DNA of 35,523 nucleotides, taken from assembly GCA_937981995.1 (NCBI GenBank), contig CALJNC010000042.1:1-35523 (forward strand). The letters run 5' to 3'. Made by a program: the position numbers and the translations under genes. The notes under the pieces were generated by a model, which worked only from the letters and a program-made list of their open reading frames with translations, was not told where the DNA came from and did no database searches. Shown here piece by piece: positions 26,361 to 31,388 of this stretch. The DNA is from an uncultured Chitinophagaceae bacterium. Its GTDB lineage: Bacteria; Bacteroidota; Bacteroidia; Chitinophagales; Chitinophagaceae. Every line of letters starts with the position of its first letter. Positions within the stretch are counted from its first letter, which is position 1.

Positions 26361-26375
26361 AATAAAAAATTATTT

Positions 26376-26455
26376 CTAAACTGATGAACTCAAATACTCA
26401 CGATTCATACGAGCAATATTGGAAATAGAAATTCTTTAAGCACATTTCAACGAAC
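26376..26455 (-). pseudogene. Decayed copy of the sdhB 3' end
   Basis: Read on the minus strand, this stretch encodes [16 protein letters not shown] followed by a few residues and TAG (26378-26376). The intact sdhB (27472-28233) ends with [16 protein letters not shown], a few residues and TAG. Upstream in the same frame a Lys codon of sdhB (AAA in CPKG) is TAA here, and homology fades by about 26455. The two copies share an exact 18-bp core, 26404-26421 and 27506-27523, with silent differences around it, so the relic has diverged for some time. It has no start and cannot make a protein. Confidence 0.85.
26404..26421. repeat. 18-bp direct repeat, copy 1 (in the sdhB relic)
   Basis: TTCATACGAGCAATATTG is identical to 27506-27523 inside the 3' end of intact sdhB, 1102 bases away in the same orientation. 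It may be an attachment-site-like core or just the best-conserved part of the duplicated gene end. Confidence 0.8.
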
Positions 26456-26482
26456 TTCCAGCCGCGGTTTCTCCGCAATTTG

Positions 26483-27471: not shown

Positions 27472-28233
27472 CTACTTAGTAATTGTAGCACTCAAGTATT
27501 CGCGGTTCATACGAGCAATATTGCTAATCGAAATTCCTTTAGGACATTCCACCTCGCAAGCTCCTGTGTTTGTACAAGCACCAAAACCTTCTTTGTCCAT
27601 TTGAGCTACCATATTTTGTACACGCTCTTTTGCTTCTACTTGCCCCTGTGGTAACAATGCAAATTGCGAAACTTTAGCTCCTACGAATAACATGGCCGAA
27701 GCATTTTTACAAGTAGCTACACATGCACCACAACCAATACAAGTGGCAGCGTCCATTGCCATATCAGCATCTTCTTTGCGGATTGGAATAGCATTCGCAT
27801 CCTGTGTATTACCCGAAGTATTTACAGATATAAAGCCGCCTGCATGTTGAATACGATCAAATGATGAACGATCTACCATCAAATCTTTTATTACGGGGAA
27901 TGCCTTAGCTCTCCAAGGTTCAATGTGAATGGTATCTCCATCATTAAAGCTTCGCATGTGCAACTGACAAGTTGTTACGGCTTTATCTGGTCCGTGAGAC
28001 TCACCATTGATGTGCATAGAGCATGATCCACAAATACCCTCACGGCAATCATGGTCAAAGGCTACAGGCTCCTCGTTTTTAGCTACAAGCTGCTCGTTTA
28101 ATACGTCCATCATTTCTAAGAAGGACATATGATCCGAAATTTCGGAAACTTTATATTCCACCATTTCACCTTTTACAGATGCATTAGCCTGGCGCCAAAT
28201 TTTTAGTGTAAGATTCATACTTTCTTGTGACAT
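27472..28233 (-). CDS. sdhB: Succinate dehydrogenase/fumarate reductase iron-sulfur subunit
   Basis: The 253-residue subunit passes electrons from the flavin of SdhA to quinone. The plant-type [2Fe-2S] site is Cys63, Cys68, Cys71 and Cys89 (CREGICGSC … TTC). The [4Fe-4S] and [3Fe-4S] sites use [11 protein letters not shown] (165-175) and [11 protein letters not shown] (220-230). No signal peptide is present; it faces the cytoplasm. It is the last sdh gene in the order sdhC-sdhA-sdhB, but a four-helix-bundle gene is wedged between sdhA and it. Its 3' end is duplicated as a relic ~1.1 kb downstream. Confidence 0.95.
27506..27523. repeat. 18-bp direct repeat, copy 2 (in intact sdhB)
   Basis: This copy is identical to 26404-26421 and lies 32 bases inside the sdhB 3' end, coding NIARMN on the minus strand. 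Confidence 0.8.
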
Positions 28234-28246
28234 AATATTTTTTTTT

Positions 28247-28278
28247 GAAGCGATTAGTGAATAGCGAAAAGCGATTAG
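28247..28278. repeat. Left inverted repeat of the IVS-type element
   Basis: The stretch holds repeated short units GCGATTAG, GCGAAAA and GCGATTAG. It pairs imperfectly with 28648-28674. The stop codon of the four-helix-bundle gene (28275-28277) lies in it. Confidence 0.65.
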
Positions 28279-28637
28279 GGCTTTTCTTCTAGTCTTTTAA
28301 TTAAAGAATTTAGCATTTTGCTTATTTCTGTTATTGAACTGTCTATTTCTTCGCTGTTATGTATAAAATTTAAGTTTTTACTAATTAATGTTTGTGTTTC
28401 GAGTTCGAATAAAGAACCTCTTGACGTTCTAAGGAATCGGATATAATCTCTACGAGAAAAACGGCCCCAACCTTCAGCAATATTTGACGGGATAGAGACA
28501 GCACAACGTTTAATTTGACTTGTTAATCCATATTGTTCTTCTTTTGGAAAGTTTTTTACCATAGAGTATACCTTAGTAACCAAAGCCATTGATTTTTGCC
28601 AAACTAATAACTCTTTATATGATTTTAATTCTCCCAT
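28275..28637 (-). CDS. Four-helix bundle protein (23S rRNA intervening-sequence protein family)
   Basis: The 120-residue protein belongs to the IVP/S23 family: an N-terminal [16 protein letters not shown] helix, the hallmark [19 protein letters not shown] in the middle, and a [19 protein letters not shown] helix. Members form pentameric four-helix bundles and are best known as genes carried in intervening sequences within 23S rRNA genes; their activity is not established. Here the gene sits alone between sdhA and sdhB, within inverted repeats, on the sdh coding strand. It looks full length and intact. It does not resemble an sdh subunit, and sdh operons do not normally contain it. Confidence 0.92.
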
Positions 28638-28647
28638 TGAATATTCT

Positions 28648-28674
28648 CTATTCGCTTTCCGCTAATCGCTCTTC
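28648..28674. repeat. Right inverted repeat of the IVS-type element
   Basis: Read on the minus strand, it carries GAAGAGCGATTAGCGGAAAG followed by CGAATAG. It pairs with the left repeat 28247-28278 with small gaps, and lies 11 bases upstream of the four-helix-bundle ATG. Confidence 0.65.
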
Positions 28675-28682
28675 CCTAATAT

Positions 28683-30698
28683 TTACTTATATGATCTCTG
28701 TTTTAATTCTATATCGTTGAACTCAAGTTGCTCTTTGTGCAACACAGCTTCACTTGGCTCTCCTTTATATTCCCAAGCTGCTACATAAGCATACTCATCA
28801 TCTTTACGTTTTGCTTCACCTTTTTGTTCGCCGTCAAGCTCTACACTTTCTTCACGGAAGTGACCTCCACAACTCTCGTTACGGTTTAAAGCATCTGTTG
28901 CAAATAATTCGCCTAGTTCTAAAAAGTCTGCCACTCGACCAGCTTTTTCTAACTCTGCATTTACTTGATCAGAACCTCCGGGTACACTTACGTTTTTCCA
29001 GAAGTCTTCACGCAAGGCTTTGATTTCAGCAATGGCTTCTTTTAATCCTGTTTCGTTACGAGACATTCCAACTTTCTCCCACATGATTTTACCAAGTATC
29101 TTATGATAATAATCAACGGAGTGTGTTCCTTTATTATTTACAAAGAATTCAATTCTTTCTTTTACATCTTTTTCCGCAGCTTCAAATTCAGGAGTATCCG
29201 TAGGAATTTTTCCCGTACGAATATCATGAGATAAATAATCACCAATCGTGTATGGCAATACAAAATAACCATCAGCCAATCCTTGCATAAGCGCAGAAGC
29301 TCCTAAGCGGTTGGCACCATGATCAGAGAAATTAGCTTCGCCAATGGCGTAACAACCAGGAATGGTAGTCATTAAGTTATAATCAACCCATACACCGCCC
29401 ATGGTATAGTGCGTAGCGGGATAAATCATCATTGGTGTTTTGTATGGATCTTCTGCTACGATTTTTTCGTACATCTGAAATAAGTTACCATACTTCGCCT
29501 TAACGATGGCTGCACCTAATTCAGTTATTTTTTCTTGTGAGGCATTATCTAAATTCTGCAGTTTAGCTTGCTCTTTACCATAACGCTCTATTGCCGATTT
29601 AAAATCAAGATAAACCGCTTCACCCGTTGCATTCACTCCATAACCAGCATCACAACGTTCTTTGGCCGCACGAGATGCAACATCACGAGGTACTAAGTTT
29701 CCAAATGCTGGATAGCGTCGCTCTAAATAATAATCTCTTTCTTCTTCGCTAAGATCAGTAGGCTTTTTAGTTCCGTTACGAATAGCTTCTACATCCTCTA
29801 AATTTTTAGGTACCCAAATACGTCCATCATTACGAAGTGACTCCGACATCAAAGTCAATTTAGATTGATAATCGCCCGAACGAGGAATACACGTTGGGTG
29901 AATTTGTGTGTAACAAGGATTAGCGAAGTAAGCACCTTTCTTATGTACTTTCCATGCGGCGGTTGTATTACTACCCATGGCATTTGTACTTAAGAAATAT
30001 ACATTACCATAACCACCACTAGCTATTACTACAGCATGTGCTGAGTGTCTTTCAATTTCTCCCGTAACCAAGTTACGTGCGATAATACCACGAGCCTTAC
30101 CATCTACTTTTACAACGTCTAGCATCTCGTGACGGTTGTGCATTTCAATTTTACCACGTGCTATCTGACGATTCATAGCGGAGTAACAACCTAATAAAAG
30201 TTGTTGTCCTGTTTGTCCTTTGGCGTAAAAGGTTCTTGAAACTAATACACCACCAAAAGAACGATTGTCTAATAAGCCACCATAATCACGAGCAAAAGGA
30301 ACCCCTTGTGCAACGCATTGGTCAATAATATTGGTAGATACTTCAGCCAATCGATAAACGTTGGCCTCGCGTGAGCGATAATCACCACCTTTTACCGTAT
30401 CATAAAATAATCGGTAAGCCGAATCACCATCACCCTGATAGTTTTTTGCTGCATTGATACCTCCTTGTGCAGCAATCGAGTGCGCACGACGTGGAGAATC
30501 CTGATAGCAAAACGCTTTTACATTGTAACCAAGTTCAGCGAGCGTAGCTGCAGCAGAACCTCCTGCTAATCCAGTACCCACAACAATCACGTCTATATTA
30601 CGTTTGTTGGCAGGGTTTACTAAGTCAATTTTATTTTTATAGTTTGTCCACTTATCAGCGATATCGCCTTTTGGAACTTTAGAATCTAATGTACTCAT
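28683..30698 (-). CDS. sdhA: Succinate dehydrogenase/fumarate reductase flavoprotein subunit
   Basis: The 671-residue catalytic subunit oxidises succinate to fumarate. The FAD-binding motif is [19 protein letters not shown] (~40-57). His73 in [13 protein letters not shown] is the expected site of covalent FAD attachment. [10 protein letters not shown] and the C-terminal [11 protein letters not shown] and [18 protein letters not shown] stretches are conserved substrate and FAD contacts of the b558-linked group. It starts 18 bases after sdhC. Its stop codon overlaps the right AATATTT repeat of the inserted element. Confidence 0.96.
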
Positions 30699-30716: not shown

Positions 30717-31388
30717 TTAGTGAGTAATTGGGTTTAAATAATGGTAAATCGCAATGAATGCAAAGGCTGCTGGCACAACAATGGCAAATGCGTTACCTAC
30801 TTTCTTAATGATAGGTGTGTATTTGTTATTATTAAAGCCAACCGACTGAAACGAAGATTGAAAACCATGCAATAAGTGTAGTGCAAGTGCCACAAATGAT
30901 ATTAGGTAAATTATTACTCGTATAGGGTCTTGAAACTTTTCTACCGTCTCATGAAAATATCTTGTTGGATCTTCGGGTTGAAATTCAATATATTTTACAA
31001 CCATCTCATGCATCCAAAAATCATATAAGTGTAAGCCCAAAAATGCCATAATAACCGCACCGGTGTAAATCATATTACGACTCATCCAGTTAGAGTTAGC
31101 GCTTGGCTTGTTGTATGCGTATTTTACTTCGCGAGCTTGGTTATTTTTTAGCTCTAAATAAATACCCATTATTAAGTGAAAAAACACCCCAAACATAAGC
31201 ACAGGCTGCATTGCAAACTGTATTACTGGGTTCGTTCCCATGAAATGTGAAGCTGCATTAAAAGCATCTTCGCTAAATACAGAAACAAGGTTAATAGATA
31301 CGTGTATTACTAAAAAGGAAACAAGGAATAATCCCGAAAGTGCCATAAGCACTTTTCTTCCTATTGTCGAAAACTTTGAGTTTGCCAT
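30717..31388 (-). CDS. sdhC: Succinate dehydrogenase cytochrome b558 subunit
   Basis: The 223-residue membrane anchor has five hydrophobic helices and His residues within them (including FLVIHVSINL, GVFFHLIMGIY, LALHLLHGF) for two b hemes. This single-subunit, five-helix anchor is the type found in Bacteroidota and Bacillus. It passes electrons to menaquinone. It is first in the minus-strand operon sdhC-sdhA-sdhB and follows a clear promoter. Confidence 0.93.
   Translation of the reverse strand: MANSKFSTIGRKVLMALSGLFLVSFLVIHVSINLVSVFSEDAFNAASHFMGTNPVIQFAMQPVLMFGVFFHLIMGIYLELKNNQAREVKYAYNKPSANSNWMSRNMIYTGAVIMAFLGLHLYDFWMHEMVVKYIEFQPEDPTRYFHETVEKFQDPIRVIIYLISFVALALHLLHGFQSSFQSVGFNNNKYTPIIKKVGNAFAIVVPAAFAFIAIYHYLNPITH

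Follow-up and report, generated by a model that had tools for sequence, protein, structure and literature searches.

The window, a stretch of 35,523 nucleotides (nt) from an uncultured Chitinophagaceae bacterium and the whole of the DNA analysed here, contains an intact gene of the IVP family (Pfam 23S_rRNA_IVP, PF05635) between sdhA and sdhB, enclosed by a short repeat array on each side. The open reading frame (ORF; 28275..28637, minus strand) encodes 120 amino acids (aa), lies on the same strand as both neighbours, and is the sole gene between the two arrays, termed arms below. The gene order on the minus strand is sdhC (30717-31388), sdhA (28683..30698), IVP, and sdhB (27472..28233), where the sdh names follow a first-pass annotation of this DNA and are supported by conserved homologues. 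In the coding direction, the sdhA stop codon TAA is followed by ATATTAGGGAAG, by the degenerate 7-nt units AGCGATT AGCGGAA AGCGAAT AGAGAAT of the upstream (5′) arm (28642..28677, minus strand), by ATTCA, and by the IVP start. The stop codon lies 5 nt before AGGGAAGAGCG, which opens this arm, and the G-richer strand of the arm reads toward the IVP gene. The downstream (3′) arm (28249..28278, minus strand) is an inverted copy of the 5′ arm with the degenerate units CTAATCG CTTTTCG CTATTCA CTAATCG, and a short A-rich spacer extends from it to the sdhB start.

The first-pass annotation had described imperfect inverted repeats built from GCGATTAG and GCGAATAG around an intact IVP gene, and both the gene and the repeats were borne out. 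Positions 28249-28278 pair with 28648-28677 (30 nt, 77% complementary), and a second, 29-nt alignment pairs 28249-28277 with 28642-28670 (79% complementary). These repeats resolve into a pair of tandem arrays of a 7-nt unit, inverted relative to each other. Across the window, only the 3′ arm (28249-28287) scored above threshold as a period-7 array, and three shuffles gave none; the 5′ arm alone fell below this threshold, and both arms together gave an arm score of 34 with a period of 7.

The encoded protein matched PF05635 (E = 4.2e-39; 133.5 bits, curated cut-off 33.8) and TIGR02436, four helix bundle protein (E = 3e-39; 133.6 bits, cut-off 24). Its nearest solved structures were 2gsc (E = 7.9e-24) and 2rld (E = 8.2e-6), both deposited as uncharacterised. 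Profiles of Avd, the accessory protein of diversity-generating retroelements (DGRs), scored below their curated cut-offs (bAvd PF22296, E = 1.9e-7, 32 bits against 40; NF033474, E = 2.7e-7, 30.8 bits against 80), and the flanking genes are sdh genes with no adjacent reverse transcriptase. In the parts of PMC4990558 covered here, proteins of this family (also called S23p) are described as having no known function, and a Xanthomonas member as a pentamer of four-helix bundles.

Arms at IVP genes across genomes

IVP genes were found four times in the window genome, at least once in 94 of 119 related genomes, and in none of 14 control genomes. A contig scan with the single pattern SIPSNIAE added named loci, the best 80 of at least 586 confirmed matches, with members among the Bacteroidota, Desulfobacterota, Clostridia, Acidobacteria, Planctomycetes, candidate phyla, and an archaeal metagenome-assembled genome (MAG). 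Loci from the 119-genome search were likewise taken for the best matches only, and the samples thus lean to canonical IVPs. At most loci whose flanks were read, short tandem units were mirrored across the gene, with a unit that differed from locus to locus, including 7-nt (AAGTATT, GGTTAGT, GAGCTAT, GGGAACA, GTGACAG) and 8-nt units (AGGCAACA, GGCACAAA, TTCAAAGG).

An enlarged set comprised 185 IVP ORFs in 177 loci, of which 181 ORFs were testable and four were dropped. Inverted arms, called at a score of at least 30, were present at 143 of the 181, and a clear period at 145 (7 nt, n = 100; 8 nt, n = 38; 9 nt, n = 4; other, n = 3), while only four had neither. On the same contigs, arms occurred at 61 of 80 IVP genes (again the best 80 of at least 586) compared to 69 of 766 other genes (31 of 251 small and 38 of 515 larger genes). 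The arms have a strand bias, with the G-richer strand of both reading toward the gene in 131 of 143 armed loci, and their composition (26% G, 9% C) departs from that beside control genes (16–17% each).

The two arms of a locus match each other. Among the 108 of 113 loci with sufficiently long flanks (five dropped), the mean matching score was 38.9 within loci compared to 20.4 (sd 6.3) between arms of different loci, and a locus's own arms beat 95% of foreign arms in 75 loci and 99% in 50. A lag analysis of the same number of loci, with dinucleotide shuffles as the null, gave mean Z scores (upstream/downstream) of 2.8/2.5 at lag 7, 1.2/1.3 at lag 8, and 2.1/1.7 at lag 14, while no other lag departed from zero by more than 0.3; the values at lag 7 for 108 control genes sampled from 667 were 0.3/0.7. 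Z exceeded 3 in 81 upstream and 79 downstream flanks of the IVP loci compared to 14 and 23 of the controls. Single-letter shuffles served as the null for the enlarged IVP set, the same-contig genes, the PDDEXK_3 loci described below, and the array scan of the window.

Some loci depart from the simple layout. The arms of L110, L130, and L137 are direct rather than inverted; L110 belongs to a single fatty-acid operon in which several junctions hold arrays of one TATACAACAATACAT type, some of them direct, and an exchange between neighbouring arrays is possible there. In L073, L108, and L126, two different IVP genes stand in one operon, each with its own arms, before genes that we take to be leuD-like and leuB-like. 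Five loci on cyanobacterial plasmids were read: L287 and L288 have both arms inverted, and the sister plasmids L285 and L286 carry the same kind of element with a clear 5′ array only. The fifth, L289 (2288-2969), lies on a Pseudanabaena plasmid: here an IVP gene separates cas6 from cas4 in a type I-D CRISPR operon, and its long 7-nt arrays (AAAAGCT/AAAAGCC) are partly in direct orientation.

Unit length and the encoded protein

The length of the repeat unit follows the IVP tree. For 138 loci with a period of 7 or 8 (36 of the 181 without a clear period and seven with other periods were left out), the label changed 15 times on the tree compared to 33.7 times with shuffled labels (minimum 29), and with one locus per junction group 8.2 times compared to 15.3 (minimum 12); the tree was built from a short protein with FastTree, and the counts of changes are approximate. 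Both periods occurred in five of 10 genomes checked, which indicates that the period belongs to the element and not to the genome.

Genes of the PDDEXK_3 family, which we take to be the GxxExxY family, have arms of another period. An arm score of at least 30 was reached in 17 of 30 PDDEXK_3 loci, the mean score was 34.1 compared to 21.4 for foreign arms, and 13 of 30 beat 95% of foreign arms. Mean Z was highest at lag 9 (1.55 upstream, 1.34 downstream) and only 0.04 and 0.35 at lag 7, and lag 9 was the best significant lag in six of 30 flanks on either side. In L115, L057, L321, and L204–L233 such genes often lie inside inverted arrays with a unit of about 9 nt, for example CGCGGATTA in L115. 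These arrays are possibly a sister type of the IVP cassette. The dependence of period on protein could come from an array that is read or made by the protein, or just from arms handed down together with the gene.

Occupancy of operon junctions

The IVP elements mostly lie in the gaps of operons. For 98 loci with both neighbours called, 82 IVP genes lay between genes of their own direction, five ran against both neighbours, and 11 were mixed. Arms could be aligned in 101 of 153 elements, and in these the outer end of the 5′ arm was a median of 3 nt past the upstream stop codon (quartiles 0–11), and that of the 3′ arm a median of 10 nt before the downstream start (quartiles 4–16); with its arms abutting stop and start, the insert takes up the operon gap, and neither neighbour is interrupted.

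The first-pass annotation had proposed that the element entered with a 7-bp target duplication, AATATTT, and copies of this word do occur outside both ends, at 28234..28240 and at 28678..28684, the latter overlapping the sdhA stop codon. Removal of the segment with one copy retained does leave the TAA-ATATT-ATG junction between sdhA and sdhB that had been described. The duplication itself did not hold up. Among 153 IVP elements, the longest word common to both outer ends averaged 3.84 nt compared to 3.78 nt for mismatched ends, and words of at least 7 nt were shared in five elements compared to 1.4% of mismatched pairs. A congener (G001) has the element without the repeat, and the window's AATATTT pair (8 nt by this measure) is not clearly beyond chance.

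The proposed empty site, TAAATATTATG, was not found among the sdhA-sdhB junctions of relatives, and the suggestion of a common GCGATTAG end failed for the other three IVP genes of the window genome (G000), none of which has it; across all four loci the flanking units differ and no terminal sequence is shared. Matched arms as such recurred, built from other units, at two of the three (L002 and L003, scores 54 and 42); at L004 they are doubtful (score 32, not above foreign arms). The IVP gene of L003 (1495-1857) has two in-frame stops, with short-repeat arms still in place (inverted score 42, direct 40), and arms may therefore outlive the gene.

The first-pass annotation also suggested that IVP genes travel as a minimal, transposase-less element that enters protein operons, and this idea gained support from several junctions. 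A survey of sdhA|sdhB took in 63 pieces including the window, six of which lacked a readable sdhA end and were dropped. Of the remaining 57 junctions, 41 have no gene (≤161 nt) and eight have an IVP-family ORF (the window, L034; the congener, L035; L047, L053, L293, L297, L305, and L306), although L047, L297, and L305 appear to carry truncated forms or no complete ORF with an ATG start. The other tenants are a PDDEXK_3 ORF (n = 2; L057 and L321), an MNT/HEPN pair (n = 1; L036, the MNT part presumed), PDDEXK_2 (n = 1; L307), and other genes (n = 4); glycosyltransferase-like and carboxypeptidase-regulatory-like genes were seen at this junction. By eye, short-repeat arrays persist at some junctions without a gene, as mirror images on both sides in L054 and L061 and on one side only in L046 and L058. 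The IVP of the congener G001 is 67.5% identical to that of the window, and its units are CCAATAG/CTATTGG; as these differ from the window's on both sides, the two arms have changed together. A second congener, G002, has no IVP gene at the junction, but its SdhB is only 71% identical to that of the window, so that it provides no clean before/after pair. The MNT/HEPN pair of L036 (genome G079) stands behind the heptad-like sequence GAAATAG ACATTAG TGACTAG. As a regular cargo this pair was rejected: of 11 PF08780 loci, 10 were testable and none had an arm score of at least 30, which leaves L036 a single case.

Of 150 genomes searched, 145 had a NadD match, and gmk|nadD was surveyed in 30 of them, all Flavobacterium. 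Ten of the 30 have an IVP cassette at this junction, 15 a gene-less hairpin, and five another ORF of 140 aa. Fourteen of the 30 carry 105–113 nt gene-less hairpins with CGAATCTTTG-type arms (among L180–L203), and L202 carries another hairpin; the best lag of the gene-less hairpins was 10 nt in 10 of 15, with a Z of only 1.6–3.3. The 140-aa ORF (L175, L177, L178, L198, and L201) appears membrane-protein-like by eye and replaces cassette or hairpin. The median dN/dS was 0.076 for the IVP gene (37 of 55 pairs usable) and 0.049 for NadD (27 of 55), rough values with a median dS of about 1 and with the 18 IVP and 28 NadD pairs outside the usable dS range dropped. Judged by these ratios, the IVP protein is under purifying selection at this junction and is clearly kept.

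Mechanically called downstream genes (the longest downstream ORF starting within 350 nt, grouped by homology) fell into 21 recurrent groups and 68 singletons across 171 IVP loci. One group (S06), initially assigned to sufC, comprises assorted ABC ATPases with a median identity of 0.29 and was not counted as evidence. At a thiolase junction, eight IVPs needed seven changes on the tree compared to 7.9 with shuffled labels, and the neighbouring genes are at least 60% identical while the IVPs share only 40–57%. With similar neighbours and unrelated IVPs, this junction was probably entered repeatedly.

Closely related IVPs at different junctions have similar arms. The mean arm score between loci at different junctions was about 21–22 for protein identities below 55%, 24.6 at 55–65%, and 40.9 at 65% or more (30 pairs). 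L096 and L114, MAG loci at sdhA|sdhB, share 70–76% protein identity and mostly the same TAATTAGT units with Flavobacterium gmk|nadD cassettes. L107, on a contig binned as Ruminococcus, and L008, from a relative of the window genome, share 70% protein identity and GGTTAGT units at different junctions, where a mis-binning of L107 is conceivable. Further pairs include 8-nt cassettes of the GGCACAAA/GGCAACAA type in Bacteroidota, a Desulfobacteraceae MAG, and a Nitrospirae MAG. The same unit of similar arms and a similar gene is found at different sites in relatives and is in this wide sense a mobile element.

A proposed mobile cassette, competing explanations, and known systems

These observations are moderately well explained by a minimal mobile cassette, in which a conserved IVP gene lies inside inverted, degenerate arrays of 7 or 8 nt, occupies the gap of an operon, and moves slowly without a transposase; on this best reading, the intervening sequences (IVSs) of 23S rRNA would be rRNA-resident members of the same cassette type. 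The relocated pairs suggest that arms and gene travel together as a unit. The IVP protein, a distant relative of Avd, probably binds the arms as DNA or RNA, which would explain a unit length that follows the protein (7 or 8 for IVP, 9 for PDDEXK_3), and it may be needed for the capture or spread of its own cassette. In the transcript, the inverted arms would fold into a stem, which would allow the insert to be looped out or, in the manner of 23S rRNA, to be cleaved by RNase III; this is a proposed reason why the operon tolerates the cassette. Movement would be rare and carried out by host machinery, either by recombination or by a reverse transcriptase acting in trans.

A number of results weigh against such a cassette. 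Target duplication above chance is absent in the 153 elements, no recombinase and no excision were seen, no match to the window IVP was found among 50,697 phage records, and no clean occupied/empty pair of near-identical strains was found, with empty sdhA|sdhB junctions only in more distant genomes or occupied by another hairpin or gene. Some junctions are mostly inherited (tree changes: gmk|nadD, 2 for 12 members; sdhB, 6 for 17; argD, 4 for 10). The pairs with at least 65% identity are not independent, as 10 of 30 involve L096 or L114, though the other 20 are spread over many loci. There was no recent burst: IVP copies within a genome (fetched copies only, 10 genomes, 2–8 each) average 30–40% aa identity with a maximum of 0.70, a divergence which indicates that movement is rare or mainly between genomes. 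Arm matching falls short of the 95% mark over foreign arms in 33 of 108 loci and passes that mark in direct orientation in 13, some control flanks also exceed the Z threshold (five upstream and 10 downstream of them at lag 7), and the fit of period to tree may only reflect arms inherited with the gene. The predicted fold of the window RNA does close a stem of the arms around the ORF, but it is only somewhat better than shuffles (z = −1.75), and the arms have no preference for G-U wobbles (103 G-U type and 132 A-C type mismatches, p = 0.07), which counts against selection for an RNA stem. Finally, the GGGAATC heptamers of Xanthomonas were reported not to be generally associated with mobile elements (PMC4692102, as far as covered).

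The main rival is a purely mutational origin, in which intergenic DNA gathers 7-nt repeats by slippage, inverted partners arise by template switching in a quasi-palindrome, and the IVP gene is merely tolerated. It can draw on the finding that in many bacteria no long simple repeat is more common than the 7-nt array (Mrazek 2007, cited in the covered parts of PMC4679880), on gene-less inverted pairs (half of the gmk|nadD junctions surveyed, and two Xanthomonas genomes with 70 and 75 such pairs; PMC4692102, in part), on the control flanks that peak at lag 7, and on the missing G-U signature, with which arm matching could arise at the DNA level. The controls weaken it: arms are concentrated at IVP genes relative to other genes of the same contigs, the period tracks the protein tree with several genomes carrying both periods, PDDEXK_3 loci in the same group of genomes peak at 9 nt, and similar arms accompany similar genes at different junctions. 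Slippage as the whole explanation appears unlikely.

Another rival is a vertically inherited operon gene, in which the IVP would serve the host by regulating or assembling sdh and the products of other operons, and the arms would act as RNA processing hairpins. The IVP gene is kept at sdhA|sdhB in the congener G001 and several Flavobacteriia, the identities of IVPs and their neighbours correlate (Spearman 0.61 at sdhB, 0.85 at argD), purifying selection on the IVP is strong, and the arms close a stem in the predicted fold. This account has difficulty with the sdhA|sdhB survey, where most junctions are gene-less and others hold PDDEXK_3, MNT/HEPN, or other genes, with the many downstream groups and singletons, with one IVP clade already seen at unrelated junctions, and with arms that have no G-U signature, and it appears quite unlikely. 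A classical non-autonomous transposon or miniature inverted-repeat transposable element (MITE) with a 7-bp target duplication and a transposase in trans, the strict reading of the first-pass annotation, is highly improbable, for despite the inverted ends and the two AATATTT words of the window there is no duplication above chance, the copies within a genome have diverged, and the ends match mainly within a locus and differ between loci, so that one transposase could hardly recognise them by sequence.

The proposed mobile cassette has its closest known counterpart in the 23S rRNA IVS with an S23p/IVP ORF (PMC4990558, in the parts covered). The two are alike in protein family, in length (428–444 nt compared to about 450 nt here), in sense orientation, in a terminal inverted stem, and in heptamers upstream of the ORF whose copy number varies by strain. 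The 428-nt IVS of Coxiella has a 28-bp terminal stem and, before the S23p ORF, tandem GACAGAT heptamers in two or three copies depending on the strain, along with a variant, a layout that corresponds to the 5′ half of the anatomy found here; no array in the downstream arm is described in the covered parts of PMC4990558. The differences are that the 23S IVS sits in and fragments rRNA, whereas the window cassette lies between the protein genes sdhA and sdhB, and that in Coxiella the ORF is reported to be decaying, probably without yielding a protein (PMC4990558), unlike the IVPs at gmk|nadD. IVPs are also described in 16S and 23S insertions of candidate phyla (PMC11270868, in part). The same account of Coxiella cites earlier proposals that the IVS is a mobile element and that its ORF serves its mobility (PMC4990558). 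Five exact 23S motifs were found in none of 289 loci, many of which reach only 1.5 kb to each side, and the link to 23S rRNA accordingly rests on the published Coxiella description. With the anatomy found here, the old question of whether IVSs are mobile and S23p responsible becomes open to simple tests.

Heptamer simple repeats are a second point of comparison, and the cyanobacterial short tandemly repeated repetitive (STRR) sequences are one such repeat. TAACTGA (PMC4679880) and GGGNATC/GGGGAYT (PMC4692102; both papers in part) are also 7 nt long, mostly intergenic, and often near start or stop codons, and the Xanthomonas heptamers often form convergent inverted pairs like the arms here (PMC4692102), while only a few of the Nostoc repeats do so, as far as the source was covered. 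Each of these studies describes arrays of a single motif type and assigns them a role in regulation or as G-quadruplexes, unlike the locus-specific arms of IVP genes, and the covered parts of PMC4679880 and PMC4692102 do not link the heptamers to IVP genes. DGRs share with the cassette only a distant profile relationship between Avd and IVP, and no reverse transcriptase stands beside the window IVP. Other small intergenic palindromes are the repetitive extragenic palindromes with their associated tyrosine transposases (REP/RAYT) and MITE-type elements, some with a gene and some without. The window cassette differs from these in having no transposase gene and ends that are not one sequence per genome.

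Taken singly, the IVP protein family, the IVS of 23S rRNA, and the simple heptamer repeats are known. In a literature search with preprints and most subscription journals outside its scope, no link of non-rRNA IVP genes to repeat arms was found, nor were the union of these parts outside rRNA, matched arms, 9-nt arms of PDDEXK_3 genes, or a dependence of period on protein. The shared anatomy outside rRNA describes what an IVP gene travels in, and it links IVP to the unexplained heptamer repeats of bacteria. Tentatively, it could define a new class of minimal selfish cassettes in many phyla, each with one small gene in inverted arrays whose unit length is set by the protein (7 or 8 for IVP, 9 for PDDEXK_3, perhaps 10 for gene-less forms), fitting the stop-start gaps of operons without transposase or duplication; many heptamer repeats would then be solo arms, 23S IVSs the rRNA members, and IVP the mobility factor. 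If true, a dependence of the repeat period on the protein would amount to a new principle by which the ends of an element are recognised or made.

The neighbourhood of the window cassette has some features of its own. Downstream of the intact sdhB, a fragment at 26373-26477 (minus strand) is 59% identical to the last 34 residues of SdhB and has two stops; it may be left over from a partial duplication or from an earlier sdhB. The window SdhB itself is 92% identical to that of the congener G001, 79% and 78% to those of G079 and G096 from other families, and 71% to that of the congener G002. As it is nearer to genomes of other families than to G002, the sdh operon (27472-30698) may have been acquired horizontally, maybe together with the cassette.

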